Of a stretch of DNA of 39,031 bases, positions 4,795 to 38,779 are shown one piece after another. The stretch is from a virus. The translations under genes and the position numbers were made by a program. Every line of letters begins with the position of its first letter. The stretch's first letter is position 1. The stretch is taken from positions 1 through 39,031 of the IMG/VR virus record IMGVR_UViG_3300028920_000151; one strand, 5' to 3'. Under the pieces are notes generated by a model, which had not been told where the DNA came from, made no database searches, and saw only the letters and a list, made by a program, of their open reading frames with translations.

Positions 4795-6942
4795 ATGCCT
4801 AATATCGCCAAATTCCAATACGTCATTGCCGAAAATAACATATCGGTCGGCGGAGATATTTCAGTTGCTGGGGCCGTGTGTGCGGCCTGTCTCTACGGTG
4901 ACGGCTCCAACTTATCCGGTATTGTCGGCGGTGCCGACACTCAGATCCAATACAACAACGCGGGTTCACTTGCCGGGGATGCGGGCCTGGTCTATAACTG
5001 CGGCACAAACAAGCTGACTGTGGGTGGCGATATCGCAGCGACGGCGTTTTGTGGCCTTCATTGGGGTAGCGTTAAAGAAGCAACGTCGGTATGCAGCCCA
5101 GCTGCTACGCCTATGCTCATCTTCGCGGACGGTGGTGCGGCCCAAGTGCTTGTCAACGCAACCGATCTCAAGTCCTGCGGACTCCTCTGCGCGGGCGGCG
5201 ACCTCAACGTTGCGGGCGATATCAACCTCGCTGGTGGTGACATGTGCGTCCCCGTGAACACGGATATGTGCCTGTACATTACAACGGCCGGCTGTCATCT
5301 GTACGTAAGTGGCGGTGACCTGCGCATGGGCGCAAACAATATCTGTGCCACGGCCTTCTACGGCTCCGGGGCAAACCTTACGGCACTTGACCCCGCCAAC
5401 ATTGTGCAGGACGGCGCAACCGACGCCCAGGTCATGACCTGGTGCAACGCCTGCGGTTGCTGGACGCCAATGGATGTCTCGGTAACGCCGGGAGGGGCCG
5501 ATACCCAGGTCCAGTTCAACGACGGAGGATCGTTCGACGGCGACCCTGGACTGACCTGGAACAAGACACTGAATAGTTTAAGAGTCTTTGGGGATGTTAA
5601 AACATGTACTGTTTGGGGCACCGGCAATTTGCATTTGGGCGCTTGCTCCGGCTACGTGAACGTGTTTTGTAACTTCTGTGCAAGCTGCGGTGTAAGAACC
5701 AGCTTGGTTAGGGACACAAATTCTGATCTTGTTCTGGATTCCGCATGCGGGGTAATCTGTGCGGCCGCGCCTCTTTGTGCTAACTGTATAGATAGTTGTG
5801 AAATCTTTGGCGGCGTCTCGGGGCTCTACCTCACTGGGGACACATGTATTGCGGCGGGGGATCTTGATGTAGGCGGATGCGTGATCACCGAGAAAATCGT
5901 CGGGGATAACGATCTCATGCTCTGTTTAACTGCGGGTTACTTATGCGTGGCGGGCTGTGATCTTAGGGCAGGCGCAAACAATATCTGTGCCACGGCCTTC
6001 TACGGCTCCGGGGCAAACCTTACGGCACTTGACCCCGCCAACATTGCGCAGGACGGTGCTTCTCCCGGTGAGGTTCTGATGTGGTGTAGTGGTTGCTGGC
6101 AGCCGCAGGCCGCCGGCGGGGGAACCCCTGCTGGCGCCAATACCCAGGTCCAGTTCAACAACTCCGGATCGTTTGGGGCCAGTGCCGGGATGACCTGGAA
6201 TGGGTCATACTTGACTGCCCGCAATCTCGGTGCGACATGCAATGTGACCGCTCCCGACGGGTATTTGGGGTGTCTCCATGTGTCGGGAGGCTCAATTGAG
6301 TACGTCGGGTGTGGTGGGCAGATCAGCCTTGACACAAATGCTGCGGGCTCTTGGGTCTGTGCGATTGCCGGGAAGGGCTTCAAAGGCGCTTGTGTAGAAG
6401 CGACAATTGTGAAGGGCTCAACGTGCGTGGCTTCCGACAAGGTTAAGACAGACTGCCTGATCGGTTGTTCACCAATCAATGTATATGCCGACATGTGTAG
6501 TTGTGGCACAATATGTGCAACTGATATTTGCGCGTGCTCCGTCAGTGCGCCTAACGATCTCGTACTAAGTGGCGGTAACGTATGTATTGATCCCGGTCTA
6601 GGGGACGCGTATGTTTCGGCGGGCGACCTTATTTTGGCTGGGAACCTGATAGCCAATGGGGGCTCCGTCTGTGCGCCTGACGCTCTCACACTTACTGCAG
6701 GTGGCAGTAGCGTATGTGTGGGGAACGTTGACCTTCGGGGCCCCAGCGTAAAAGCTTGTTTCGAGTGCTTTTTTGCGGGGCAGAGTATTTGTGCCTGCGG
6801 TAATATCGAAGCCGTGTTTGACATCATGGCCTATGGCGCAGTTTGTGCAGATGGTTACTACACCGCTGGAAACATTCAGGGCGCAACCGGGGCTCGCTGC
6901 GGCATCTGCTTCTGTAACGGTATTGCAATCATTATCCCATAA
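4795..6942 (+). CDS. Cysteine-rich phage tail-fibre protein
   Basis: A 715-residue protein without a signal peptide. It contains three copies of a fibre motif, [PV]-x-GA[DN]TQ[IV]Q[FY]N[DN]xGS followed by a short strand (about residues 45, 240 and 450), and copies of YGSGANLT or YGDGSNLS, both typical of phage tail fibres. It has about 56 cysteines (close to 8%), many as CxxC, CxC or VCA/ICA at the ends of short beta-strands (ICATDICACSV, GICFCNG). Metal-binding motifs such as zinc ribbons do not recur in an ordered way, so the cysteines look distributed over a repetitive beta-fold. GGAG before the ATG supports the start. The fibre assignment is fairly secure. The purpose of the cysteines (disulfide cross-links, metal or mineral binding, receptor contact) is unknown. 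Confidence 0.75.
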   Translation: MPNIAKFQYVIAENNISVGGDISVAGAVCAACLYGDGSNLSGIVGGADTQIQYNNAGSLAGDAGLVYNCGTNKLTVGGDIAATAFCGLHWGSVKEATSVCSPAATPMLIFADGGAAQVLVNATDLKSCGLLCAGGDLNVAGDINLAGGDMCVPVNTDMCLYITTAGCHLYVSGGDLRMGANNICATAFYGSGANLTALDPANIVQDGATDAQVMTWCNACGCWTPMDVSVTPGGADTQVQFNDGGSFDGDPGLTWNKTLNSLRVFGDVKTCTVWGTGNLHLGACSGYVNVFCNFCASCGVRTSLVRDTNSDLVLDSACGVICAAAPLCANCIDSCEIFGGVSGLYLTGDTCIAAGDLDVGGCVITEKIVGDNDLMLCLTAGYLCVAGCDLRAGANNICATAFYGSGANLTALDPANIAQDGASPGEVLMWCSGCWQPQAAGGGTPAGANTQVQFNNSGSFGASAGMTWNGSYLTARNLGATCNVTAPDGYLGCLHVSGGSIEYVGCGGQISLDTNAAGSWVCAIAGKGFKGACVEATIVKGSTCVASDKVKTDCLIGCSPINVYADMCSCGTICATDICACSVSAPNDLVLSGGNVCIDPGLGDAYVSAGDLILAGNLIANGGSVCAPDALTLTAGGSSVCVGNVDLRGPSVKACFECFFAGQSICACGNIEAVFDIMAYGAVCADGYYTAGNIQGATGARCGICFCNGIAIIIP
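5329..5404 (+). repeat. 76-bp exact direct repeat, copy 1
   Basis: Identical over 76 bases to 5971-6046, 642 bases downstream in the same frame of the fibre gene. It encodes GANNICATAFYGSGANLT and continues through LDPANI. Flanking sequence differs, so this is a recent internal duplication or a gene-conversion tract. Confidence 0.9.
5971..6046 (+). repeat. 76-bp exact direct repeat, copy 2
   Basis: Second copy of the repeat at 5329-5404. Homology breaks at the base before the copy and at the base after it, with a short GCAGGACGG tract again shared downstream. It could mediate recombination that shortens or lengthens the fibre. Confidence 0.9.
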
Positions 6943-7614: not shown

Positions 7615-8358
7615 ATGGGAAAGCCGAAAACGACCCGCCTGGTATGTACCTGGGGGATACGCCGATCGGGCAACCGCGTAGTCGCGGCCTGGATCGCTAA
7701 CCAGTACGAGCCTCCGGTGCATAATCCCGTCAACCCGAGCATGGACTACCTGCTGAAATGCCATCGTGAGGGGAAACCCGCCGAGGGCCATCACAAATGG
7801 CAGGAAACCGTCACGGCCCGGGTCCTACCATTCGAAGACCACAAGATCGAGTCTGTGGCCGTTGTGGAACCTAATCGCGGTTTCTGCCGGGCTATCGGGG
7901 AATCGGAGAACACGCATCTTGCGGTGATTCTGCGCGATCCCTACAACCTGTTCGCGACTCGGGTTAAGCACTATGAACTGCTGTCGCCTACGGGTAAGTG
8001 GATCGATACGCGAATGGCCACGCGACAATGGGTAAAATACGCCCGGGCCTTTACCGGTGACGCGGAGCTGCCTGAGGGCACGCTGTGTGTCTCGTACAAC
8101 AAGTTCCTGGCCGACCTATCCTATCGGAAGGAGATCAGCAAGCGGGTTGGCGGTACATTCGATGACAGCAGCCTGGATATCGTTGACGACAACGGTGGGG
8201 GCAGCAGCTTCGATGGTACGGAATACAACGGGAGTGGCCGTGAGATGCCGGTTATGGAGCGTTGGAGGATTTACGCAGACAACAAGGCATTTCGCAGCCT
8301 CTTTACGAAAGAGATACGGGAGCTCTCGAAAGAGATCTTCGACTTTAACCCATTCTAA
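7615..8358 (+). CDS. Sulfotransferase-like P-loop protein 1
   Basis: A 247-residue protein with the layout of PAPS-dependent sulfotransferases: a strand plus 5'-phosphosulfate-type loop GIRRSGNRVVAAW (residues 14-26), and a 3'-phosphate-binding-type strand VILRDPYNLFATR (R107, D108). Near the C-terminus GGGSSFD (residues 194-200) is followed by M-x-x-x-RW. The same signatures occur in the protein at 26793-27518, so the two are paralogues. The acceptor is unknown; glycan, protein, lipid and modified DNA base are all open. The gene is followed 28 bases later by a GT9-like glycosyltransferase, suggesting a joint glycan-modifying function. GTGAGGA lies 5 bases before the ATG. Fold confidence is moderate and catalytic activity is inferred. 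Confidence 0.6.
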   Translation: MGKPKTTRLVCTWGIRRSGNRVVAAWIANQYEPPVHNPVNPSMDYLLKCHREGKPAEGHHKWQETVTARVLPFEDHKIESVAVVEPNRGFCRAIGESENTHLAVILRDPYNLFATRVKHYELLSPTGKWIDTRMATRQWVKYARAFTGDAELPEGTLCVSYNKFLADLSYRKEISKRVGGTFDDSSLDIVDDNGGGSSFDGTEYNGSGREMPVMERWRIYADNKAFRSLFTKEIRELSKEIFDFNPF

Positions 8359-8386: not shown

Positions 8387-9382
8387 ATGGCGTCACGCAA
8401 GAAAACGACAAAGAAGGCAGCGTCGGCCGCTGCACCGACCGGGACCCAAGTCGACAAGGCGAAGTATGTGATCTTCATCGTCGACGGGGGCATTGGTAAG
8501 AACATCATGGCTACGGTGCCGATCCGCGGCATACGGGCCAAATACCCGGACAAGAAGATCGTCGTGGTATGCGGATACCCGGACGTCTTCAAATTCAACC
8601 CCAACGTCTACCGGGTACATCCGTTCCAGAATACGCCCGATTTCTACGACAACTACGTGGCCGATGAACAGGCGGTGGTGCTCAAGGCCGAGCCCTATCT
8701 GGACAATCGGTACGTCTACAAGCAGGGGCCCCTGCATTGCAGCCAGCTCTGGTGTGAAATGCTGGGCGTGCCGTTCGACGACTCAAAACCGGATCTTTTC
8801 CTCAACAAGAAGGAACTGAGCCAGGCCAAGAACTTCGTACAGAGCAAGAACCGGCCGGTCCTGCTCATCCAGTTCAACGGGGGTGTGCCTCCGCGGCCAA
8901 ATCCTCAGGATCCGAAACAGGTCGTGCCGGCACCCAAGATGTTCGCCCGAAACCTGCCGATGCAGACGGCCATGCACGTGGGCCAAGAGCTGAGCGAAAA
9001 GTATCACGTTATGGTGGCGGGAGCGGCTACACAGCCGGTCTGGGAGGGCGCTGAGCGCGTTTCCTACCCATTGCGCCAGACGTTCGCTATCGTCCCCCAC
9101 GTACACAAGCTGCTGCTCATCGATAGCATGATGCAGCACGTGGCGGCAGCCCTCGAAAAGCAGGCAGTTGTCTGTTGGTGCGGCACGAGTCCGGATCTCC
9201 TGGGCTACGAGAGTCACATCAACCTGCGGATGAAGGAGTGCCCGACACCCGAGTGTCACCGGCCCAACAGTTACCTGTGGGACCGGGATGCCAAGGGCCA
9301 GCCGTGGGACTGTCCGCATGGCGAAGCGTGTGTCTGGCACGATGAGGCCGACATTCTGGCAGCCCTGAAGAAGAGCAAATAG
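8387..9382 (+). CDS. GT9-like (heptosyltransferase-type) glycosyltransferase
   Basis: A 331-residue protein. ATG 8387 follows GGGGAGGA with good spacing; an upstream open frame overlapping the previous gene lacks a ribosome site. After a Lys/Ala-rich start, VIFIVDGGIGKNIMATVPIR (residues 28-47) corresponds to the N-terminal Rossmann strand and Gly-rich loop of ADP-heptose:LPS heptosyltransferases, and VVVCGYPDVF to the next strand. The C-terminal half has LLLIDSMMQHVAAAL and VVCWCGTSPD, the nucleotide-sugar-binding region of GT-B folds, equivalent to D[ST]-x-x-x-H[LV]A. A Cys/His cluster (CPTPECH, CPHGEAC) near the end is atypical. Donor and acceptor are unknown. It ends at the strong terminator before the convergent terminase gene. 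Confidence 0.65.
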   Translation: MASRKKTTKKAASAAAPTGTQVDKAKYVIFIVDGGIGKNIMATVPIRGIRAKYPDKKIVVVCGYPDVFKFNPNVYRVHPFQNTPDFYDNYVADEQAVVLKAEPYLDNRYVYKQGPLHCSQLWCEMLGVPFDDSKPDLFLNKKELSQAKNFVQSKNRPVLLIQFNGGVPPRPNPQDPKQVVPAPKMFARNLPMQTAMHVGQELSEKYHVMVAGAATQPVWEGAERVSYPLRQTFAIVPHVHKLLLIDSMMQHVAAALEKQAVVCWCGTSPDLLGYESHINLRMKECPTPECHRPNSYLWDRDAKGQPWDCPHGEACVWHDEADILAALKKSK

Positions 9383-23201: not shown

Positions 23202-23796
23202 CGAGCTGGGATACAGGGCATGGGACGAGTTCTACATCCAGATGGAACGGCGGTTCCGGATCAGCCGTGGCCGCGGCCAGTACTGGCAGAATCGTCACCT
23301 CAAGGCCTTCCGGAAGATCGGAGAGAAGTGTCTGAAGCACGGCATCGATCCTACGGACTACATCAATGTCAGCTTCGACGTCCTGGAAAAAAATCATCAA
23401 TATATAACTCCGAAGGACTTCAGCAGCGGAAAAGCACTCAACCGCTACCTCCAGCATCGATCGGCCTACGCCGACGACGTGTTGGCGAGCTGGGTCACGC
23501 AAGTAAATACTGTGACCGATATGGAATGTCGGCTCATACCGAAATTGTACGCAAACGAAGAGGATATCTTAATGAACATGGCGATCTCATTCGACGCTTG
23601 GTTTAGGATCCTCTATCCGTCCACGTTCAGCGATCGACTGTACGCGATCTACGGGCAACAGGCGTGGACAGAACTGCATGCAAACAGAAAGCTGTGCGAG
23701 TTCCTGCGGGAGCGACGCCCAGCCAACGTGAAGGAGCTGGAAAGCCGTATCGGGGATCTCGGTGACGGTATTTACGGTGCAGGAGGAACAAGATGA
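23188..23796 (+). CDS. Unknown protein upstream of the replicative helicase
   Basis: A 202-residue protein (MDRTDELGYRAWDEFYIQME). GAGGA precedes its ATG, which lies inside the helicase gene. It appears mainly alpha-helical with many aromatic residues (WFRILYPSTFSDRLYAIYGQQAW) and no metal or nucleotide motif. Overlap by 4 bases with the DnaB-like helicase gene suggests coordinated synthesis; a helicase-loader or assembly role is possible from position but has no sequence support. Confidence 0.6.
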   Translation: MDRTDELGYRAWDEFYIQMERRFRISRGRGQYWQNRHLKAFRKIGEKCLKHGIDPTDYINVSFDVLEKNHQYITPKDFSSGKALNRYLQHRSAYADDVLASWVTQVNTVTDMECRLIPKLYANEEDILMNMAISFDAWFRILYPSTFSDRLYAIYGQQAWTELHANRKLCEFLRERRPANVKELESRIGDLGDGIYGAGGTR

Positions 23797-25283
23797 GTAG
23801 TCTGTATACAAAGGACTTTCAGATCAACCTGATCGTCCACCTGGCCAAAGACGAGGAATTCTTCAAGTCGACGTTGAGCTATCTGCGACATGAGGATTTC
23901 GATCTGGCGCCCTGCCAACTGGTACTGGAGGCGCTACAGAGTTACTACGGCCAATACCGGGCATTACCGGACTTCAATACGTTGCAGGTACACGTATTGC
24001 GTACTCTGCAGAACGTCGATGGGCGAACACTTACGCTTGTCAAACCGGACGAGTATGAGGCGCTATCGTACGTAATGAACGCCATCGCTACGACGACGCG
24101 GCTGAACACTGACTATTACCGCAACGAACTATCGCAGTATCTGAAGGCCATGCGGGCTATGCAGATTGTGCGCGGCCACATGGACTACCTGTCCGAGGGG
24201 CAGAGTGTCGACGACTTTTTCGGCAAGATCCTGCAAGTCAACCAGGAGATTTCCACCCATACGGCTGAAGTAACGATCGACAGTATGGACGAGAATCCGG
24301 AGCCCATACTTGAGGCCACGGACGTTCGGCGCATCAATACCGGATTGAAGCCACTGGACAATCGGACTTCCGGTGGATTGGGTCTGGGTGAGATTGGAAT
24401 GATCACCGCATGTCCTGGCGTAGGTAAGACGACGGGACTCATTAACTTCATGTACGGCGCAATCCTGACCGGTATACGTTGCCTGTTCTTTACGTTGGAG
24501 CTGAGTGCCCGGCGAATTAAGCATCGCTACCAGGGTATTGCAGCGCATATCGCTGCCGGCACATTTAAGAAACCGGTGCGAGAATGGTCACCTGAGGAAC
24601 TGGAGCGTTATCAGTTCATCCTGAATCCGGAATACAAGTACTTCGGGTATGCGGATATCGCTGATATGTCAAAGCGCAGCTTCTCGGTCGAGGACATCGA
24701 CACATCCATTCAGCGTTGGCTGGAAAAGAATAACAAGAAGCACGACACCGTAAACAACTGCAAACTGGTCTGCGTGGACTGGCTGGACAAGCTCGATCCG
24801 GCGGGCATACGTATCAATAAGAACACGCGTGAAGACACGCTGCTCATGAAGCTGAATGAAAAGCTGGGTGAGCTGGCACGGCGTTATGACTTGGGTCTAT
24901 GGACCGCAACACAGGGCACACGTGAGGCCGACGGCCGCGAAATCCTGCAGATGCGGCATACGGCCCATGGTTACCACAAGAATGATCCCCTGGATATCAG
25001 CCTGGGCATCGGTGTAGTGAACGACGGGACGGAGGAAGCCGGCGACGAAGCACTGATCAGTCAGCAGACCGAGGACAGTGAAAACGCGCCGGTTTGTAAC
25101 CGTCAGCTGATGGGTTCAATCATGAAAAACCGGGACAACCCGCCGGGGTCGTTTCGATTCTACCAGGGCCCCACACTGCGATTTTGGCAGAGTGACAGTG
25201 AGGCTAAAAACAAAGACAGAGAAGCCAAAGAAGGCAGATACATCGGAACAATAGGCTACAGAAACCAAACACAGGTAACATGA
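23793..25283 (+). CDS. dnaB: Replicative DNA helicase, DnaB/gp41-like
   Basis: A 496-residue protein. Residues 1-110 resemble the DnaB N-terminal helical domain (FFKSTLSYLRHEDFDLAPCQLVLEAL). Residues about 180-460 form the RecA-like motor: GLKPLDNRTSGGLGLGEIGMI, Walker A PGVGKTT (208-214), LFFTLELSA (H1a-like), Walker B region KLVCVDWLDKL and WTATQGTREA (H3-like). A hexameric 5'-3' fork helicase working with the primase encoded directly downstream is expected. GGAGGAA precedes the ATG. It overlaps both neighbours by 4 bases (ATGA). Confidence 0.88.
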   Translation: MSSLYTKDFQINLIVHLAKDEEFFKSTLSYLRHEDFDLAPCQLVLEALQSYYGQYRALPDFNTLQVHVLRTLQNVDGRTLTLVKPDEYEALSYVMNAIATTTRLNTDYYRNELSQYLKAMRAMQIVRGHMDYLSEGQSVDDFFGKILQVNQEISTHTAEVTIDSMDENPEPILEATDVRRINTGLKPLDNRTSGGLGLGEIGMITACPGVGKTTGLINFMYGAILTGIRCLFFTLELSARRIKHRYQGIAAHIAAGTFKKPVREWSPEELERYQFILNPEYKYFGYADIADMSKRSFSVEDIDTSIQRWLEKNNKKHDTVNNCKLVCVDWLDKLDPAGIRINKNTREDTLLMKLNEKLGELARRYDLGLWTATQGTREADGREILQMRHTAHGYHKNDPLDISLGIGVVNDGTEEAGDEALISQQTEDSENAPVCNRQLMGSIMKNRDNPPGSFRFYQGPTLRFWQSDSEAKNKDREAKEGRYIGTIGYRNQTQVT

Positions 25284-26260
25284 GTACAATGAACCCCACC
25301 GTGCTGGAGCCCCTGTTAAGGCGAAAGTTCGGCACAGTAAAACGATCGCGGGGGAAGAACGGCCTGGAGTATATCGTTGATTGCCTCTTCTGCTCAAAAC
25401 GGCAGAAGCTGTACATCAACCCCAACCGTGGGCTGTACATTTGCTTCCGCTGCGGAGAAACGGGCCGTATTGAGGACATCCTCGGGCGAGGCAAGTATGC
25501 CCGTCCAGAGGTAGCGCCACCAGTACACGTTCCGCTACCTGAAGACATCGAGCCCCCGGGCGAACTGCAAAGCCTGCAAAGCCTGTCGCCGGACCATCCG
25601 GCCGTACAGTACATTAAGCAGCGTAAGTTCGATCTCGTGGAGCTGAACAACGTCTTCGGCGTGCGGTACTGCGCGTCGGGACGAGTCTTCGGTGGTATCT
25701 TCAACACCACCAACACACTAATCTTCCCCATCTGGATGGACGGCAAGCTCCGTGGCTGGCAGTCGCGGCTGCTCTACGATCCGGACAAGCTGGATGAAAA
25801 GCAGTGTGATGCCCTGGGGTTCATGCGCGACGAGGACGGCGACATTGTGCGTCCGCCCAAATACTTTACGGCCCCGGGCATGACCAAGGGCAGTGTGTTC
25901 TTCAACTACGATTGGGCCCGCAAAGGCGACCTGGTCGTGGTATGTGAAGGTACATTCGATGCCATGGCTGTCGGCCGCTGCGCTGTAGCCACGTTGGGCA
26001 AAGGACTCTCCGATGAACAGATGCGCCGGCTGCGTTGGAGCTGGCGTCTGGCTATCGTGCTCTTGGACCCAGGTGATGCGGACGGTGAACGTGACAAGCT
26101 GGCGCTGCGCCTGCAGTTCGGCCTGGACGCTGTCATCCGAATGGAATTAGACGGATACAAGGACCCTGGCGGTGCGCCCCGTAAAGAGATCTGGAAGCAA
26201 ATCGGAGAGGCAGCGCACGAACAGGGCATCGACTTATTCAGCTACAGGTTCATCATATGA
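25280..26260 (+). CDS. dnaG: DNA primase with zinc finger and Toprim domain
   Basis: A 326-residue primase. The zinc-binding part has four cysteines: CLFC (35-38) and CFRC (55-58), with the conserved aromatic NPNRGLYICFRCGETG context of CHC2-type fingers, although here all four ligands are Cys. The Toprim domain shows CEGTFDAM (E223, D227) and LLDPGDADG (D263, D266, D268), the metal-binding acidic set. It makes RNA primers at the fork with the DnaB-like helicase. The ATG overlaps the helicase stop by 4 bases and the stop overlaps the methyltransferase ATG, so the three are translationally coupled. The length is near that of T4 gp61-type primases. Confidence 0.88.
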   Translation: MSTMNPTVLEPLLRRKFGTVKRSRGKNGLEYIVDCLFCSKRQKLYINPNRGLYICFRCGETGRIEDILGRGKYARPEVAPPVHVPLPEDIEPPGELQSLQSLSPDHPAVQYIKQRKFDLVELNNVFGVRYCASGRVFGGIFNTTNTLIFPIWMDGKLRGWQSRLLYDPDKLDEKQCDALGFMRDEDGDIVRPPKYFTAPGMTKGSVFFNYDWARKGDLVVVCEGTFDAMAVGRCAVATLGKGLSDEQMRRLRWSWRLAIVLLDPGDADGERDKLALRLQFGLDAVIRMELDGYKDPGGAPRKEIWKQIGEAAHEQGIDLFSYRFII

Positions 26261-26790
26261 CGCGAAAGTACATGAACGACAGATGGTGCGTACGCTGCAG
26301 CCGGCTGGGTCCGACGCCGTACCTGCGTAACCACTGGCAGAAGCTACTACCTAGGAATGGTGCAGGCGAACACATCGTCTCCGCTAGAATCATGGATATC
26401 GGATGCGGCAACGGCCGCAATGTCGAGTTCATGCGTAGGCAAGGCTACACGAATACCGTGGCCTTTGACATGGCAAACGACTACGGATACAAGATCACGC
26501 TCGGGCGGGAAAGATTTCCCTTACTCGACGACAGTGTTTCAGTGGTACTCGCCAACTATGTTTTCATGTTCCTCGACCCCAAAGAACGTAAACAAGTAAT
26601 CAAAGAAATCAAGCGCCTGGCAGATCCCGGATATACGGGGTGCCGGATCATGGTCGAGCTCTACCCTGCCAAAGACAGTTTCGCAAAAACAGACGCGCAG
26701 TGCACCGCACTCCAGAAAGAACTTTTTGAACAATTGGGCTGGTACAAAGTACTGTACAGCAAACACAGATTTATCGCAAGGAACCACTAA
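26257..26790 (+). CDS. SAM-dependent methyltransferase (class I)
   Basis: A 177-residue protein. Motif I RIMDIGCGNGRN (residues 45-56) binds SAM; FDMAND is the acidic end of strand 2; SVSVVLANYVFMFL is motif IV, with ANYV rather than a [DN]PP[YF] motif, so it does not look like an N6A or N4C DNA methyltransferase. A short Cys pair (WCVRC) lies near the N-terminus. The substrate is unknown. It starts within the primase stop codon (ATGA) and is followed by a sulfotransferase-like protein and a glycosyltransferase, suggesting one modification pathway. The family is fairly secure, the substrate not. Confidence 0.75.
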   Translation: MTRKYMNDRWCVRCSRLGPTPYLRNHWQKLLPRNGAGEHIVSARIMDIGCGNGRNVEFMRRQGYTNTVAFDMANDYGYKITLGRERFPLLDDSVSVVLANYVFMFLDPKERKQVIKEIKRLADPGYTGCRIMVELYPAKDSFAKTDAQCTALQKELFEQLGWYKVLYSKHRFIARNH

Positions 26791-26792
26791 CA

Positions 26793-27518
26793 GTGAAACT
26801 CTACCTCCAACTCGGAATGGCCCGGAGCGGCTTACATGCGGTGGGTAATTGGATCCGGTTACAGCATGGCGACATAACGTATTACAACGACGTGAAGATC
26901 GAAGATAACAAGTTCACAGGGGGCGTTCTATGTCACGGTAAGACAGCAACCTTTCTCGGGTTCGAGGACTTCGATATGCAGGAGTGGGAGAAGAACCGCT
27001 TCCCAGAACGCCTTGCGCGCTTTGAGCGCGTGTACGCCATAATCGTTATGCGAGACATACGCAACTGGCTGGCCAGTTGCTACAAGGCCTATCGTGTGAA
27101 TAAAGGGATCAGGTGGCGTCGGCGGATGATCGAGAACCTGGGAGGCAAAGACGGAAGGATAGCTCGTTGGGTCCGGCTTATGGCTGAGTACCTGGGTCAG
27201 GGAATGATCAGCAACCCGGTTCCTGTTTCGTTCAACAAATGGTTTGTCGACAGAGAATACCGGCAAGTGTTGGCCACAGCATTGGACGTTCCGTTTACCG
27301 ATGAGGGCAAGGACACAGTCTACGCCAGCGGCCGTTTCGGCGGCGGCGGAAGTAGCTTCGATCAGAAGCGTTTCGACAGTCGAGCCAGTGAGATGGATAT
27401 CCTGAATCGCTGGCGCGTGTTTGAACACGAGCCAGAATATCAGGCACTCCTGGACGAATACGAGGACATCGTGGGACTGTCCGACCTGCATCTAGGAACA
27501 CCGGGAAATTGGAAATGA
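26793..27518 (+). CDS. Sulfotransferase-like P-loop protein 2
   Basis: A 241-residue protein starting at GTG 26793, 2 bases after the methyltransferase stop; only a weak AAGGA lies upstream. It has the same signature order as the protein at 7615-8358: phosphosulfate-type loop GMARSGLHAVGNW (R11-G13), a strand VMRDIRNWLASC (R87, D88), GGGGSSFD (183-190) and a C-terminal M-x-x-x-NRW. N-terminal LQLGMARSGLHAVGNW is close to family consensus. Sulfate transfer from PAPS is inferred; an unrelated group-transfer activity on this fold cannot be excluded. The stop overlaps the following glycosyltransferase ATG. Confidence 0.62.
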   Translation: MKLYLQLGMARSGLHAVGNWIRLQHGDITYYNDVKIEDNKFTGGVLCHGKTATFLGFEDFDMQEWEKNRFPERLARFERVYAIIVMRDIRNWLASCYKAYRVNKGIRWRRRMIENLGGKDGRIARWVRLMAEYLGQGMISNPVPVSFNKWFVDREYRQVLATALDVPFTDEGKDTVYASGRFGGGGSSFDQKRFDSRASEMDILNRWRVFEHEPEYQALLDEYEDIVGLSDLHLGTPGNWK

Positions 27519-28276
27519 ACATTGTAACTATCTGTAAGATCGACGAGTGGATACCGACGCATCTGGCTCGGTTCGTATACTTCGCCAGGCAGGCCGTGAA
27601 AGATGTTAAGATCCACGTGGCGATTCCTACGAGAGGTGAGTCCGAAGAAGTACTAGCTGCCGTAGCCAGGCCGCTTCGGGCAGCGGGTCTCAATCTCCGG
27701 TTCATCAAACAACAAGACGTGGCGGGGCGGCTGCTCTACTTCGACATGCTGCGTTCGGCGGCCACGGAACTGTTTGGTCTGGACGAATGCCTGTACGCTG
27801 ATCCGGACATAGATATCGTGGAAGACATCAGCGACATTACGCAATACGACGGAGATCTGTTATGGGTGCCAAATCCGATAACGATATCGCACCTGGTGCC
27901 CCAGTTCAAAAAGCTAAACCTGCAGCCGCCTTATATGGAGCCTGGCTTCATGTATATGCGCAGCTCGTTCAAAAAGGACTTTGAGAAGTGGCTGAACGAT
28001 CCGGCAATAGATCGAGGCAGCTTTGCGCCCGGGTCAGTGATCTGGAGCGCTATCAGCGCCGGCGTGGGCAGCCCTCCGATACCACAGTACTACAACGTGA
28101 CGGGGTGGGCGGCAGATCAGCTATGCACGGCCAAAAGCATACACTTTACAGGGCCGTTCGCCAAGCAATGGCGGCCGTACATTTCCTACGAGCACCAGCC
28201 TTGTAGACGCATGATCATAAATCCGAAACCCGTTGAGGACGGGATTCCAGATTTAGACTATAGGAGGCACCTATGA
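27515..28276 (+). CDS. GT-A glycosyltransferase (GT8-like)
   Basis: A 253-residue protein; ATG 27515 overlaps the previous stop (ATGA). It shows the GT-A pattern: N-terminal MNIVTICK strand, FDMLRSAATELFGLDECLYADPDID with the metal/nucleotide-sugar DxD (D96, D98), GFMYMRSSF in the acceptor region, and a C-terminal IHFTGPFAKQW, close to the HFxGxxKPW motif of GT8-type enzymes. Donor and acceptor are unknown. The gene is sandwiched between the sulfotransferase-like gene and the DNA polymerase gene, overlapping both. Candidate substrates are a modified base in phage DNA, virion proteins or host glycans. Confidence 0.68.
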   Translation: MNIVTICKIDEWIPTHLARFVYFARQAVKDVKIHVAIPTRGESEEVLAAVARPLRAAGLNLRFIKQQDVAGRLLYFDMLRSAATELFGLDECLYADPDIDIVEDISDITQYDGDLLWVPNPITISHLVPQFKKLNLQPPYMEPGFMYMRSSFKKDFEKWLNDPAIDRGSFAPGSVIWSAISAGVGSPPIPQYYNVTGWAADQLCTAKSIHFTGPFAKQWRPYISYEHQPCRRMIINPKPVEDGIPDLDYRRHL

Positions 28277-31044
28277 CCGAAGAACAAGAGCAGATACCGA
28301 CCCAGTTGGATCACACACGTGTAATCGGAGGACTGAAGTGGGTTCGCGGATACCCGGAACCCAGTAAGGACGGGCTTCCGGCCGAGACTATGGTCATTGG
28401 AGACCATCCGGGTCCCGAGGAGACCAGAGACGGTAGCGTCTTTCGGGGTCCTAGCGGGACAAAGGTTCTGTGGCCGACTTGTAACAAGCTGGGATTCGAT
28501 TACGCTCCGGGCAAGGCCTATTTCACGAATGCGGTGAAATACGAGCCGCCGGGTAAGCGAGCGGTGAACGCCGGGGATATCAAGCGCTGCAAACCCGTGC
28601 TGGAGGACGAGATCGAGCGTGCGGGACCCCGGGTCATTGTGTGCCTGGGCGCCAACGCACTGAAGGCCATCATGGGCCGTTCGTACACGCTGAACGAGTA
28701 TCGGGGCGTGGTCCTCGAACATCCGGAGCGCTCCGGCGTGAAGGTAATAGCGGCCTACAATCCGGCATACGTATTGCGCAACCCCGAGGCAATCGATATC
28801 TACGAGGAAGACTGGCGTACGGTGGTGCGTTTACAGAGAGGTCAGGCGGTCGAAGAGCAAGATACACAATACGTCGTATTGCAGACCGCCGATCAGGTGC
28901 GGGCGTTCAAGGACGAGATGCTACAGCAATCGAGTCCGCTGCTATCTATTGACTGTGAGTGGAATGGTGCGACCTGGATGTCGCCCGATCGCTATGTGAG
29001 GCTTGTCCAAATCGGATTCAAGCCCGGCTATGCGGCCGTAATCGAATTGTACGATGAGGGTGTAGTGCCCGAGGGCGAACTCTGGACGCCGGCGTGTAAG
29101 CGCAGGGTCATGGGCGACGAACAAGGTGCTTGGGCAGCTATCAAAGAATTGTTTGAGTATCCGACCGTGCAGCTCATGGGTCAGAACATCATCGCAGACG
29201 GTCAATGGCTGATGTCCTACGGCATCGACATACGGGACCGCGTGGTATTCGACACGATGCTGGCCGAGCACCTGATCCGGGAGACTGGGCCCTTCGGCCT
29301 GGAGCGCCTAACAGTCAAGTACACGAAACTCGGCCGCTACGATATACCGGTAATGCGATGGGTGAAGGACCACAAGCTGGAGTGCGTGCATGGTTACGGC
29401 CCGGTGCCCCGGGACCTGTTGATCCCGTACGGTGCCAAGGACGTGGATGCGCCTATTCGGATTGCTCGGAAGCAGATGCCACTGCTGGCGGAATTTATGC
29501 AGCCACGCGGTAATTATCCCAGCCTGTGGGCAATCGTGATGCAGACCCAGCGTATCCTCTATGAGATAGAGGGTACGGGGCAGCTCGTCGACAAGGATAG
29601 ACTGGAGTCATTGATCAAGACCTACCGTGATCGCCTGACGGAGTTGGAGGGCATACTCGTTACGATGGCAACCGATCAGGGGCTACAGAACTTCAACCAC
29701 CGGTCGATATATGACGTGCGGAAGCTGCTGTACGACACGCTGCATTTGACGCCGATCAAGACCACGAAGGGCAAACCCTGGAAGATGGTGATGAACCAGA
29801 GCCCGGACCAGCAGGCCTTACATGCGCCCGCTGCCGATAAGGTGACACTGGAAATCCTGCAGGAGGAGCACCCCGCTGCAAAGGCGCTGCTGAATGTGCG
29901 TCGAGTACATACGGCCGTCAAGTACTTCTTGCGGGACGACGACGAGGCAGATGAAGCAAGCTCGGGGGGCGGCATTAAGGCCAAGGTGTGGGCGGACGGG
30001 CGTCTGCATCCCCATTTCTCCCAGCTCTCGGAAACCGGTCGTTTTCGGACCAGCAAACCGAACTGTCAGAACTGGCCGAAAAAGGTGGAGGGTGAGATGG
30101 TCGAAGCATTTGGCGCCAAAGAAAAGGTGCCGCCACTGATTCGATCGATCATTGTCCCAACGCCAGGCTACTATCTGATGGAAGCCGACTTTGTGCAGGC
30201 TGAGTTGTTTGTACTTGCTGCGTTGTCAGGCGACGAGCATATGTGGGAAGCGCTGACGACTCCCGGCAAGGACATGCACGATCTGACGGCCATAACGTCG
30301 TTCGGGTTGGCTGTCCTGGACAAGGACGGACACCCGGTATCGGAGGAACACATTCTCGACCTGGCGGCCCGAGATCGTAAAGCATTTGAAGACTATCAGA
30401 AGACTTTGATTTACGTGGACCAACGTGGTAAGCGGATGTCGCGTGGTGAGTTCAAGAACGGTATCAGGGTGTCGGCGAAGAACCTGAACTTCGGCATACC
30501 CTACGGGCGTGGTGCCCTGGACATTGCCCGGCAAGTCAAGGCAGAAACGGGATCTAAAACACCGATTGCGGAACTCCAGGATGAAATCCAGCAGATGATG
30601 GATGTCTGGAAAACCACGACCTACAAACAAGCCTGGGACTTCATGACAACCTGCGCGGCGGGGGCAAGTGATCCCGGGTATCTGACGAACCCGTGGGGAC
30701 GCAAGCGTCGATTTACGAAAGCGCAAACGAAAGAAAAGGAGGCAGGGCAGGAACGAGAGGCACAAAACTTCCCGATTCAAAGTACCGTAGCCGATACATG
30801 TATGATCGCGATGTGGCTCATGTGTGAATACCGAAAGCAGCACGGCCTGAAGTTCAGGCTTGTGAACCAAATCCACGATGCGATCATGGTCGAAGTACCC
30901 GAAGACGAAGTCGAAAGGACAAGAACCATGTTTAATGAAACAATGGGTAACATCGACATACCAATACCACACAGACAACCGCTACGTTTGAACATCGATA
31001 TTGATGTATTGACGCGGTGGGGACAGAAGAAAAAGGAGGACTAA
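28273..31044 (+). CDS. polA: UDG-like domain fused to A-family DNA polymerase
   Basis: A 923-residue protein. Residues about 30-190 resemble family-4-type uracil-DNA glycosylases: GDHPGPEE, FRGPSG, FTNAVKYEPPGKR, IVCLGANAL and AYNPAYVLR. The last has Asn163 where active members usually have His, and the N-terminal iron-sulfur cysteines are absent. Residues about 220-410 are a DEDDy 3'-5' exonuclease (D227, E229; GQNIIADGQW; YGAKD). The polymerase domain has motif A ADFVQAEL (D639), motif B R732/K736/F740 in RVSAKNLNFGIPYG and motif C HD (H868, D869). It is the replicative polymerase of this phage. AGGAGG precedes the ATG, which overlaps the glycosyltransferase stop. Confidence 0.92.
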   Translation: MTEEQEQIPTQLDHTRVIGGLKWVRGYPEPSKDGLPAETMVIGDHPGPEETRDGSVFRGPSGTKVLWPTCNKLGFDYAPGKAYFTNAVKYEPPGKRAVNAGDIKRCKPVLEDEIERAGPRVIVCLGANALKAIMGRSYTLNEYRGVVLEHPERSGVKVIAAYNPAYVLRNPEAIDIYEEDWRTVVRLQRGQAVEEQDTQYVVLQTADQVRAFKDEMLQQSSPLLSIDCEWNGATWMSPDRYVRLVQIGFKPGYAAVIELYDEGVVPEGELWTPACKRRVMGDEQGAWAAIKELFEYPTVQLMGQNIIADGQWLMSYGIDIRDRVVFDTMLAEHLIRETGPFGLERLTVKYTKLGRYDIPVMRWVKDHKLECVHGYGPVPRDLLIPYGAKDVDAPIRIARKQMPLLAEFMQPRGNYPSLWAIVMQTQRILYEIEGTGQLVDKDRLESLIKTYRDRLTELEGILVTMATDQGLQNFNHRSIYDVRKLLYDTLHLTPIKTTKGKPWKMVMNQSPDQQALHAPAADKVTLEILQEEHPAAKALLNVRRVHTAVKYFLRDDDEADEASSGGGIKAKVWADGRLHPHFSQLSETGRFRTSKPNCQNWPKKVEGEMVEAFGAKEKVPPLIRSIIVPTPGYYLMEADFVQAELFVLAALSGDEHMWEALTTPGKDMHDLTAITSFGLAVLDKDGHPVSEEHILDLAARDRKAFEDYQKTLIYVDQRGKRMSRGEFKNGIRVSAKNLNFGIPYGRGALDIARQVKAETGSKTPIAELQDEIQQMMDVWKTTTYKQAWDFMTTCAAGASDPGYLTNPWGRKRRFTKAQTKEKEAGQEREAQNFPIQSTVADTCMIAMWLMCEYRKQHGLKFRLVNQIHDAIMVEVPEDEVERTRTMFNETMGNIDIPIPHRQPLRLNIDIDVLTRWGQKKKED

Positions 31045-36218: not shown

Positions 36219-36809
36219 ATGAGTTCGATACGGGACAAACAGATAGTCGGGCTGGGATTCCAGATTGGCGTCGGAAAAGACACCGTCGCCGATATGCTGG
36301 TATCCCAGCACGGCTTCGTCAAAATGCGGTTCGCAGACGCCCTCAAGGAGGCCGTTTGCGCTATCTACGGCTGGAAGCGCGAACAGATGGAGGACCTCGA
36401 CTTCAAGATGGCCGAGGATCCATTCTGGCGTACCACGCCGCGGGAAGTACTACAGCGTTTCGGCACCGAGGCGTGCCGGGATATCATGCGTAAGGATATC
36501 TGGGTGAAGGCGCTTCAGCGCCGCATCCAAGACTCAGACCAGGGTAAGATCGTGGTCCCCGACGTGCGGTTTCTCAACGAGATTGAGTCCGTGCGGAAGT
36601 GGGGTGGACATGCGATCCGCATCACACGGCCCGGTTGGACGCCACCGGGTGCAAAACCAAATCAGTTAAGCCATTCCAGCGAAAGGGAACTCCTTTACTA
36701 CGAGGGCTGGGATTACAATATCGTCAACGACGGTACGCTGGACATACTCAATATACGCGTGGCTACGATCTACGACCAGATCAAGGCCCGGCAACTCATA
36801 GGTGCATGA
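36219..36809 (+). CDS. Deoxynucleoside monophosphate kinase (T4 gp1-like)
   Basis: A 196-residue P-loop kinase. P-loop GFQIGVGKDT (residues 13-22), FADALKEAV, TPREVLQRFGTEACR, W, and IVVPDVRFLNEI are the hallmarks of T4 gene 1-type dNMP kinases, which phosphorylate dGMP, dTMP and, in T4, hydroxymethyl-dCMP. The length fits the family. Such a kinase supplies triphosphate precursors and would be required if an unusual deoxynucleotide were incorporated. The DNA kinases that act on 5-hydroxymethyluracil in some phages are also P-loop kinases, so this alternative is worth noting. The start abuts the previous stop; the 3' end overlaps the next gene by 4 bases. Confidence 0.82.
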   Translation: MSSIRDKQIVGLGFQIGVGKDTVADMLVSQHGFVKMRFADALKEAVCAIYGWKREQMEDLDFKMAEDPFWRTTPREVLQRFGTEACRDIMRKDIWVKALQRRIQDSDQGKIVVPDVRFLNEIESVRKWGGHAIRITRPGWTPPGAKPNQLSHSSERELLYYEGWDYNIVNDGTLDILNIRVATIYDQIKARQLIGA

Positions 36810-37510
36810 AGACAGAACAAGCAGTAGAGCACATTGACAGTGTACAGGACCATGAAGTAGAACGCTATACCCGCTACCTGCAGAGCATCATGCCGGAGTC
36901 CCCGGAGGACCAGTTTCGTAGGTGGTTGTTCACCTATGCCAGCGTCCACACAGGTTGGCAGATGAACTGCAAGCTGTACCGATGCCTGGAGGACCTCACG
37001 TGGCTCGGCAACGAGGAGGCACTCAAGCAGCGTATCGTCGGCAGTCGGGCCGGTATGCATAACAATCGCACAAGGTACATCTATGACTTTAGCGAATTCT
37101 ATTGGGCACACCCACATTGGTTTCGAAAAAGTCGACACGAAGACTGGATGGCATACCGCCGTAGGCTTCAAGGTGCCGCGCTGGGGATCGGACAGGCAAA
37201 GGCAGCATTCTGGGTCGAACTCACGTACCCAATCGCGGCCGACGTCATCTGCGTAGATACCCACGTGCTTCAGCTCTACGGATTCACACCCAAGGAAATC
37301 AATGCACGTGGTGTCCCAAAGCGCGTAATGGACACTGTTGAGGGTCACTGGGTTGCCGTGTGCCGCGCCAAGGGCGTGCCGCCCGTGATAGCCCGGTGGC
37401 TTTACTGGGACAGAAAACAAGGCCATTCCGACAGTCGGTATTGGTCCTTTGTATTTGAAAAGGAGAACTACCATGTCAAGCTTGCAGAGCTTGCGCGAAC
37501 TCCAGGATAA
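36806..37510 (+). CDS. HhH-GPD DNA glycosylase-like protein 1
   Basis: A 234-residue protein; ATG 36806 overlaps the kinase stop (ATGA). YRRRLQGAALGIGQAKAAFW (residues 117-135) matches the helix-hairpin-helix loop GxGxxKA. AADVICVDTHVLQLYGF (145-160) contains the Asp (D151) at the catalytic position of HhH-GPD glycosylases. An alternative within the same fold is the phage alpha-glutamyl/putrescinyl-thymidine pyrophosphorylase type, which modifies rather than removes bases. The C-terminal PPVIARWLYWDRKQGH is an unfamiliar extension. A second, diverged HhH-GPD protein is encoded about 300 bases downstream. The fold call is reasonable, the reaction open. Confidence 0.6.
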   Translation: MKTEQAVEHIDSVQDHEVERYTRYLQSIMPESPEDQFRRWLFTYASVHTGWQMNCKLYRCLEDLTWLGNEEALKQRIVGSRAGMHNNRTRYIYDFSEFYWAHPHWFRKSRHEDWMAYRRRLQGAALGIGQAKAAFWVELTYPIAADVICVDTHVLQLYGFTPKEINARGVPKRVMDTVEGHWVAVCRAKGVPPVIARWLYWDRKQGHSDSRYWSFVFEKENYHVKLAELARTPG

Positions 37511-37877
37511 CGCGCTGGTATTCCAAGACACGGCAAGTGCACCGCTGCCGGGTGCAATCGTACCCTGCCTGCTGTGTGCAAAACCGTTCCTCATGCGCCC
37601 TTTCATCGGCGACCCTGACCAGATCTGCCCAGAATGCTGGGAGACCTACAAGGACGCGGCACGTGTTGTATGCTGGAAGTGCCGAGTAACTATCTGTCGC
37701 CTGGTACCCAAAGTGCTGGATAATGGGTTCTACATACGGCCAAAGACAGTTTATCACTCTACGGGCTGCAACGTCTGTCAGCCCGGACTAAAGAAATCAA
37801 CAATCATTGAGGTGGATGAATGGGAGAAGAGTATCCGGCCAAAAAAGATCATAGTACCGGGTTCGAAGTATCGGTAG
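37473..37877 (+). CDS. Cysteine-rich zinc-binding protein
   Basis: A 134-residue protein; ATG 37473 is preceded by AAAGGAGAA, inside the end of the glycosylase-like gene. Cysteines are arranged as CLLC (32-35), CPEC (52-55), CWKC (67-70) plus C75, and CNVC (99-102). This is consistent with two zinc-ribbon units. The rest is basic and polar. No enzyme motif is visible. Position between two HhH-GPD proteins, overlapping both (by 38 and 58 bases), suggests a shared DNA-related task. Family not recognised. Confidence 0.65.
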   Translation: MSSLQSLRELQDNALVFQDTASAPLPGAIVPCLLCAKPFLMRPFIGDPDQICPECWETYKDAARVVCWKCRVTICRLVPKVLDNGFYIRPKTVYHSTGCNVCQPGLKKSTIIEVDEWEKSIRPKKIIVPGSKYR

Positions 37878-38779
37878 AAGACGCTCGAAGGTCGCCCACC
37901 TATAAGGCGGTGTGCCGGGTGCTTCACCTGTTGGGCTTTGAACGCTACGCAATACCGGAGGCCGATACGTTTCTGCGTCTCTGCGATGCGTTGTGCGGTT
38001 TGCGGCGGAATGCCTTCAGGTTCGACTCCAAGGACCCGGATGATCAACTGGTACTGAAGCAACACCTGGCGTTCACGCTCATGGTGCCTGGCGGACGTGC
38101 CGATCGCGCCCGTGAAGCGGTGGACATCATGACGACACGAAATGCGTTTTATCCGGAGAGTGTTGACAATGATGCGCTTTGGGAAGCGTTGCAATCAGTA
38201 ATACGCCCGTTTGTACGCTTCTATAAAACGAAGTTAAACTACGTGCGCGGCGGTCTCCGAAAGTGGGACGCCCTTGTTGCGCAGACGCGGCGGTGGCCTA
38301 AGGTAGCGGAGACAGACCCAGGGATGCGGCAGTGGCTTACGACACATATCAAGGGTATGGGCCTCAAGGCGGCGTCGCACTTCATGCGGAATGTAGGTCT
38401 GAGCCGGTCGACCAGTGCGTATCCCATTATCGATGTGCACATACATAAGGCACTGGATCGTTTCAACTTCGTACACGACGACTACGCAAGCGCAGAACAG
38501 TCGTTTGCCTGGTTGTCGAAAATGGTGAACGTTCCGATATTGACCTTGGATACAATGCTGTGGTGTGCCTATGCAAACAACTGGCATCCGGATACCGCGG
38601 ACTTTGACAATTTCGGAGCCGCGAAGTACGATACCGAGAGCCAACAACACGGACTGGTCCGGGTTTTTGGCGGAAAAACAACTTTGAGCTTACCGAAAGG
38701 AGATGCAGCGATGGGTAGGTCGTATCTCCCTTGTACCGGGCGCCCTGACGGGCGCCCCCTACCCCCAACAAAACAGTGA
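37820..38779 (+). CDS. HhH-GPD DNA glycosylase-like protein 2 (Ogg-type)
   Basis: A 319-residue protein. GAGGTGG lies 6 bases before ATG 37820. Residues 171-215 (LTTHIKGMGLKAASHFMRNVG and PIIDVHIHKALDRF) carry the helix-hairpin-helix GMGLKAASH with Lys183 and, 22 residues later, Asp205, the arrangement of the Ogg2/AGOG group of 8-oxoguanine DNA glycosylase/lyases. The N-terminal 130 residues are helical and unlike that family. The C-terminal 60 residues are low in structure; the last part is encoded by a GC-rich hairpin (38738-38757). It may repair oxidised bases or act on a modified base with the similar protein encoded upstream. Confidence 0.65.
   Translation: MGEEYPAKKDHSTGFEVSVEDARRSPTYKAVCRVLHLLGFERYAIPEADTFLRLCDALCGLRRNAFRFDSKDPDDQLVLKQHLAFTLMVPGGRADRAREAVDIMTTRNAFYPESVDNDALWEALQSVIRPFVRFYKTKLNYVRGGLRKWDALVAQTRRWPKVAETDPGMRQWLTTHIKGMGLKAASHFMRNVGLSRSTSAYPIIDVHIHKALDRFNFVHDDYASAEQSFAWLSKMVNVPILTLDTMLWCAYANNWHPDTADFDNFGAAKYDTESQQHGLVRVFGGKTTLSLPKGDAAMGRSYLPCTGRPDGRPLPPTKQ

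Follow-up and report, generated by a model that had tools for sequence, protein, structure and literature searches.

The window analysed here, a stretch of 39,031 bases that makes up an entire IMG/VR record, carries three genes (MT, ST2 and GT) arranged head to tail, with a DNA primase on one side and a family A DNA polymerase (PolA) on the other (Table 1). The phage genome probably extends beyond the window, from which most of the late genes are absent; the terminase is similar to the terminases of phages of 130-190 kb, and also to those of smaller ones. The ATGA junctions reported at positions 26257, 27515 and 28273 in the preliminary description are all present, and further ATGA overlaps occur at 23793 and 25280, while MT and ST2 are joined by TAA CA GTG, i.e., by a 2-nt gap with no overlap. 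Four-base overlaps were found at 8 of the 35 junctions checked between same-strand genes, including five that do not belong to the trio, and PolA possesses its own AGGAGG Shine-Dalgarno sequence. Overlaps being common in this phage, and PolA having its own ribosome-binding signal, co-translation is weak evidence of a shared function or substrate. Similarly, SPO1-like relatives carry assorted genes 3' of the primase (e.g., dUTPase, sigma factor), so that the position of the trio is not by itself the mark of replication genes. The codon usage of the three genes is only slightly deviant (z values of -2.1, -1.3 and -2.0).

Table 1. Coordinates of the genes and features discussed in the text, in the window and in the related loci.
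Feature	Record	Coordinates	Strand	Description
Tail-fibre-like protein	window	4795..6942	+	phrog_9942 tail fiber, 2.4e-11; upstream of the ST1 and GT9-like pair
ST1	window	7615..8358	+	same family as ST2; E 2.9e-13 in the genome search with ST2
GT9-like (ADP-heptosyltransferase-like) glycosyltransferase	window	8387..9382	+	start codon and Shine-Dalgarno; 28-nt gap 3' of ST1
DNA primase (SPO1-type)	window	25280..26260	+	phrog_47, 1.4e-41; tblastn to SPO1-like phages; upstream flank of the trio
MT	window	26257..26790	+	177 aa; class I SAM-dependent methyltransferase, from sequence
ST2	window	26793..27518	+	241 aa, GTG start; predicted PAPS-sulfotransferase-fold protein of an uncatalogued family
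GT	window	27515..28276	+	253 aa; probable GT-A (GT8/LgtC-like) glycosyltransferase
DNA polymerase I (family A), PolA	window	28273..31044	+	PF00476, 2.5e-52; PF03167, 5.1e-18; downstream flank of the trio
HhH-GPD gene, first	window	36806-37510		zinc-ribbon-like ORF between the two HhH-GPD genes
HhH-GPD gene, second	window	37820-38779		Ogg-HhH, 1.7e-17
Patatin phospholipase	L054	7352-8296		directly 3' of ST
Lipase class 3	L056	2078-2845		directly 3' of ST
ST-family members	L062	6933-8394; 16526-17392		three members, two in tandem
Poly-serine tract	L066	7729-9999		Verrucomicrobiales
Poly-serine tract	L069	7578-11999		Verrucomicrobiales
Poly-serine tract	L070	5914-9999		Verrucomicrobiales
Poly-serine tract	L067	4074-4532		Verrucomicrobiales
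Poly-serine tract	L072	494-1099		Verrucomicrobiales
Poly-serine tract	L015	1-384		Verrucomicrobiales

MT clearly reads as a class I SAM methyltransferase, as judged from its matches to the Rossmann-type profiles Methyltransf_25 (1.2e-8; 36 bits for a Pfam cut-off of 27) and Methyltransf_11 (1.2e-8), and from its motif I (DIGCGNG, residues 47-53). It also matched PHROG 4752, annotated "tRNA methyltransferase" (2.7e-10), and gave weak generic matches only in PADLOC. The motif IV of DNA amino-methyltransferases, searched as [DNS]PP[YFW] (DPPY/NPPY), is absent from the 177 residues of MT, the substrate of which is likely a small molecule or a sugar. As for GT, which has no Pfam match, its similarity to LgtC was not significant (phmmer E value of 0.11), and its single-sequence AlphaFold model was discarded (pLDDT 38). 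Nevertheless, GT is probably a glycosyltransferase, in view of weak GT8-like motifs comprising a DxD-like D-P-D (residues 96-98) and a C-terminal HxxGPxxKxW-like element (HFTGPFAKQW, residues 210-219). No GT relatives were found in cultured phages, in viral contigs or in 392 Planctomycetota genomes (a search with no positive control), and the two matches obtained in 338 Verrucomicrobiota (E value about 0.005) look spurious. The preliminary description thus assigned MT and ST2 to the right enzyme classes, and GT to a plausible one.

The predicted structure of ST2, modelled with AlphaFold from an alignment of 15 natural homologues (pLDDT 87.4; pTM 0.87), resembles PAPS-dependent sulfotransferases over most of its length. 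It aligned with SULT7A1 bound to PAP (VIA Z of 14.3 over 214 residues), the tyrosylprotein sulfotransferases TPST (Z about 13) and the heparan sulfate enzyme NDST1 (Z of 12.6), and a Foldseek search placed sulfotransferases on top, the best PDB entries being PAP- or PAPS-bound sulfotransferases. The motifs of ST2 are RSG (residues 11-13), RDIRNWLAS (87-95), YR (156-157) and GGGSSFD (184-190). Among the 15 homologues, R11, G13, R87, D88 and N91 are invariant and S95 is nearly so, and the elements R11-S/T-G13, R87-D88..N91..A94-S95 and the GxGSSFD loop are compatible with the 5'-PSB and 3'-PB sites that bind PAPS. From this predicted fold and these motifs, we propose that ST2 is a member of the PAPS-dependent sulfotransferase superfamily. 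The alternative of a P-loop kinase (such as an hmU-DNA kinase) was rejected, since the fold search ranked sulfotransferases ahead of guanylate and sugar kinases, and since the motifs are sulfotransferase-like. ST2 matched nothing above cut-off in Pfam, NCBIfam or PHROGs; its best Pfam sulfotransferase score was 11.6 bits, against a cut-off of 22.8, for Sulfotransfer_4, and none of the 15 family members matched a Pfam sulfotransferase model.

A second sulfotransferase-family gene, ST1, overlooked in the preliminary description, lies in the same window (Table 1). The ST1 and ST2 proteins share 31% identity, and ST1 is assigned to the superfamily by homology only. A recent duplication within this phage was not supported, since the tree left the position of ST1 and ST2 unsettled, on long branches with no supported sister relation. 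Downstream of ST1 stands a GT9-like gene, which scored just under the cut-off of PF01075 (E value of 6.5e-4; 19.5 bits for a cut-off of 22). This pair is far from the replisome genes, showing that the association of an ST with a GT is not confined to the replication region.

As regards the distribution of the ST family, twelve other viral records retrieved with a DNA pattern encoding the GGGSSFD-15aa-RW signature were found to carry members. Searches by tblastn with both ST proteins of the window confirmed 11 of the 12, the last one (L010) giving a short C-terminal match with ST1 only. A search of viral contigs with a two-sequence alignment returned no relatives, 50,697 cultured-phage records contained no relatives of MT, ST1, ST2 or GT, and IMG/VR, searched with back-translated peptides, yielded no close relatives of ST2, PolA or GT. 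In bacteria, the family was detected in 15 of the 240 Verrucomicrobiales genomes searched, and in 3 of 294 in the Planctomycetota. One of the viral records (L062) harbours three ST-family members, and its ST region also comprises PEP mutase, glycosyltransferase and methyltransferase genes.

The neighbours of these genes are recurrent. A single ORF encodes fused GT9 and ST domains in several Verrucomicrobiales (e.g., L066, L069 and L015) as well as in a virus (L058, 677 aa), and a GT2 domain is fused to ST in L012. PF01075 matched above cut-off (25.6-32.5 bits) in those tested, namely the fusions of L058 and L066 and the ST-adjacent GT9 genes of L076 and L067; the GT9 domains had no significant sequence match in the PDB. 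Upon inspection by eye, the Planctomycetota ST genes sit among glycosyltransferases and flippases, and a possible glycosyltransferase with no Pfam match occurs 0.7 kb 3' of ST in the phage L055. A methyltransferase gene stands directly upstream of ST in four phages (L054-L057), and such an adjacency also occurs in several bacterial loci. Overall, GT9 was found in 11 of the 67 proteins encoded no more than one gene away from an ST (STs included), versus at most 1 of the 104 genes located at least four genes away (Fisher p of 1.6e-4, an approximate value since related loci are not independent); in some loci, glycosyltransferases of other families are also present at greater distances. APS kinase, the enzyme that makes PAPS, is encoded next to the GT9-ST gene in L069 (PF01583, 6.6e-41), which indirectly supports PAPS as the putative sulfate donor. 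It is encoded in all four bacterial genomes tested and in none of the 13 viral records, where PAPS would therefore be made by the host.

In Verrucomicrobiales, genes with long poly-serine tracts, some of them fused to RHS-like repeats, lie at most about 1.2 kb from GT9-ST or ST genes (loci in Table 1). Their products could be substrates of O-glycosylation and sulfation, an association that is uncalibrated, as genomes devoid of ST also commonly contain poly-Ser-type tracts; the background pattern, WSN, matches other residues and was counted at overlapping positions, so that it gives no usable rate.

Two other readings of the trio bear on these neighbourhoods. According to the first one, MT, ST2 and GT would be unrelated single cargo genes (morons), adjacent by chance and acting on different substrates. 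The conservation check suggested in the preliminary description, namely whether relatives keep the three genes together, gave a qualified yes: members of the ST family recurrently occur with glycosyltransferases and methyltransferases, although, in line with this first reading, no other record examined had the exact combination of MT, ST and GT lying between primase and polymerase. Furthermore, the methyltransferase of L054-L057 has no detectable homology to MT, and no homologues of GT were found. We nonetheless regard chance adjacency as unlikely, since the ST family is repeatedly beside or fused to glycosyltransferases, and often beside methyltransferases, in separate lineages, a recurrence that makes the combination unlike a random draw. 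According to the second reading, what the three enzymes make or modify would be neither DNA nor a surface glycan, but a small molecule, a lipid or a nucleotide-sugar. Many sulfotransferases of the same fold have small-molecule substrates, and genes for a lipase class 3 and a patatin phospholipase occur directly 3' of ST in two related phages (L056 and L054, respectively); the GT9, GT2 and Stealth partners point instead to glycans, making such a product quite improbable.

The embedding of the trio among replication genes had led to the proposal that the three enzymes work on DNA. In such a scheme, a hydroxymethylated base would be glycosylated by GT and its sugar methylated by MT and sulfated by ST2, thereby protecting the phage DNA. 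In addition to the location of the trio in a replication operon, it is worth noting that the replisome genes are like those of SPO1-type phages, the DNA of which contains hmU, and that near the end of the record lie a dNMP kinase gene (36219) and, after it, a pair of HhH-GPD base-glycosylase-like genes (36806 and 37820) that may be involved in the handling of bases or of DNA damage. In known base-glycosylating phages, the hydroxymethylated base is made first, usually via a thymidylate-synthase homologue. There is also a precedent in phage SP-15, the teichuronic-acid-like genes of which are proposed to build a DNA hypermodification (PMC5977210, which also covers hydroxymethyluracil synthases). 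The following lines of evidence leave this scheme unsupported, and we give it little credence. First, PF00303 (thymidylate-synthase-type hydroxymethylase) was found in none of the 13 viral records including the window (9 of 14 in the control), and PF02511 (ThyX-type) is absent from the 39,031 bases of the window, itself probably a genome fragment; PF02511 occurs in 3 of the 13 records and thus does not discriminate. Second, neither HhH gene of the window matched the Pfam alpha-glutamyl/putrescinyl thymine pyrophosphorylase (ADDT) model at E<=1, and both resemble Ogg-type repair glycosylases. Third, MT lacks the DPPY/NPPY motif. Fourth, relatives of ST are fused to GT9 or GT2, are chromosomal in bacteria, where they also sit in clusters of glycosyltransferases and flippases, and in two phages lie beside lipase or phospholipase genes, while ST1, with its GT9-like neighbour, is remote from the replisome and downstream of a tail-fibre gene. 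Fifth, the uracil-DNA-glycosylase-superfamily (UDG) domain that forms the N-terminus of PolA appears to be no peculiarity of this phage, as tblastn alignments beginning in the UDG domain suggest that phages of Serratia, Pseudomonas and Yersinia have a similar UDG-PolA arrangement. That the phage DNA bears a base-linked sugar, sulfated and methylated by enzymes expressed together with the replisome, appears highly improbable; were DNA the acceptor, this would be a new DNA-modification chemistry, and we know of no earlier sulfated-sugar modification of DNA.

We propose instead, as the probable explanation, that MT, ST2 and GT form a cassette tailoring a glycan or a glycoprotein, carried as cargo in an early replication operon. 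This proposal is based on the predicted fold and cofactor-type motifs of ST2, the repeated linkage between ST and glycosyltransferases, and the fact that this phage contains a second pairing of an ST with a GT9-like gene. In this scheme, GT would glycosylate an acceptor with a nucleotide-sugar as donor, ST2 would sulfate a hydroxyl group of the added sugar with PAPS supplied by the host, and MT would use SAM to O-methylate the sugar or the aglycone. Besides the assignment of GT as a glycosyltransferase, we infer the order of these reactions and the nature of the acceptor, the likeliest candidates being surface glycans and glycoproteins of the host envelope or the virion (e.g., a tail fibre), rather than DNA. 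For the location of the trio beside the replisome genes, the glycan-tailoring cassette offers cargo insertion as the sole reason.

As compared to known systems, the trio and the SP-15 cluster both consist of carbohydrate-type phage genes, those of SP-15 being proposed to act on DNA; the passages concerned (PMC5977210) assign ThyX-type synthases to SP-15, unlike the window, and note no sulfotransferase. The literature search returned no relevant paper joining phage, sulfotransferase, glycosyltransferase and DNA modification, and none on a heptosyltransferase with a sulfotransferase in Verrucomicrobia. GT has in common with the LgtC-type GT8 galactosyltransferases its DxD-like and C-terminal motifs, at the non-significant similarity given above. 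Like the GT9-ST genes with their poly-serine neighbours, the TibC/AAH autotransporter heptosyltransferases (BAHT) are heptosyltransferase-type enzymes encoded beside a putative protein substrate; the BAHT systems have no sulfotransferase (PMC4358343), and the protein acceptor is putative in the case of GT9-ST. Marine phages also encode sulfotransferases, matching Pfam Sulfotransfer_3, the function of which is stated to be unclear (PMC10580990); ST1 and ST2 differ from them in matching neither PF13469 nor any other Pfam sulfotransferase model above cut-off. The ST family, which is new to the profile libraries searched (Pfam, NCBIfam and PHROGs) and fused to glycosyltransferases in phage and Verrucomicrobiota, makes the role of phage sulfotransferases testable, in that sulfated glycans can be sought on virions or infected hosts, and the GT9-ST fusions are single-protein enzymes open to assay. 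Finally, ST2 has in common with the SULT, TPST and NDST enzymes a predicted fold that extends over the whole chain (Z of 12.6-14.3) and motifs of the 5'-PSB and 3'-PB types, but differs from them by its sequence (about 10% identity), its lack of a Pfam model, its phage origin and its tie to glycosyltransferases.
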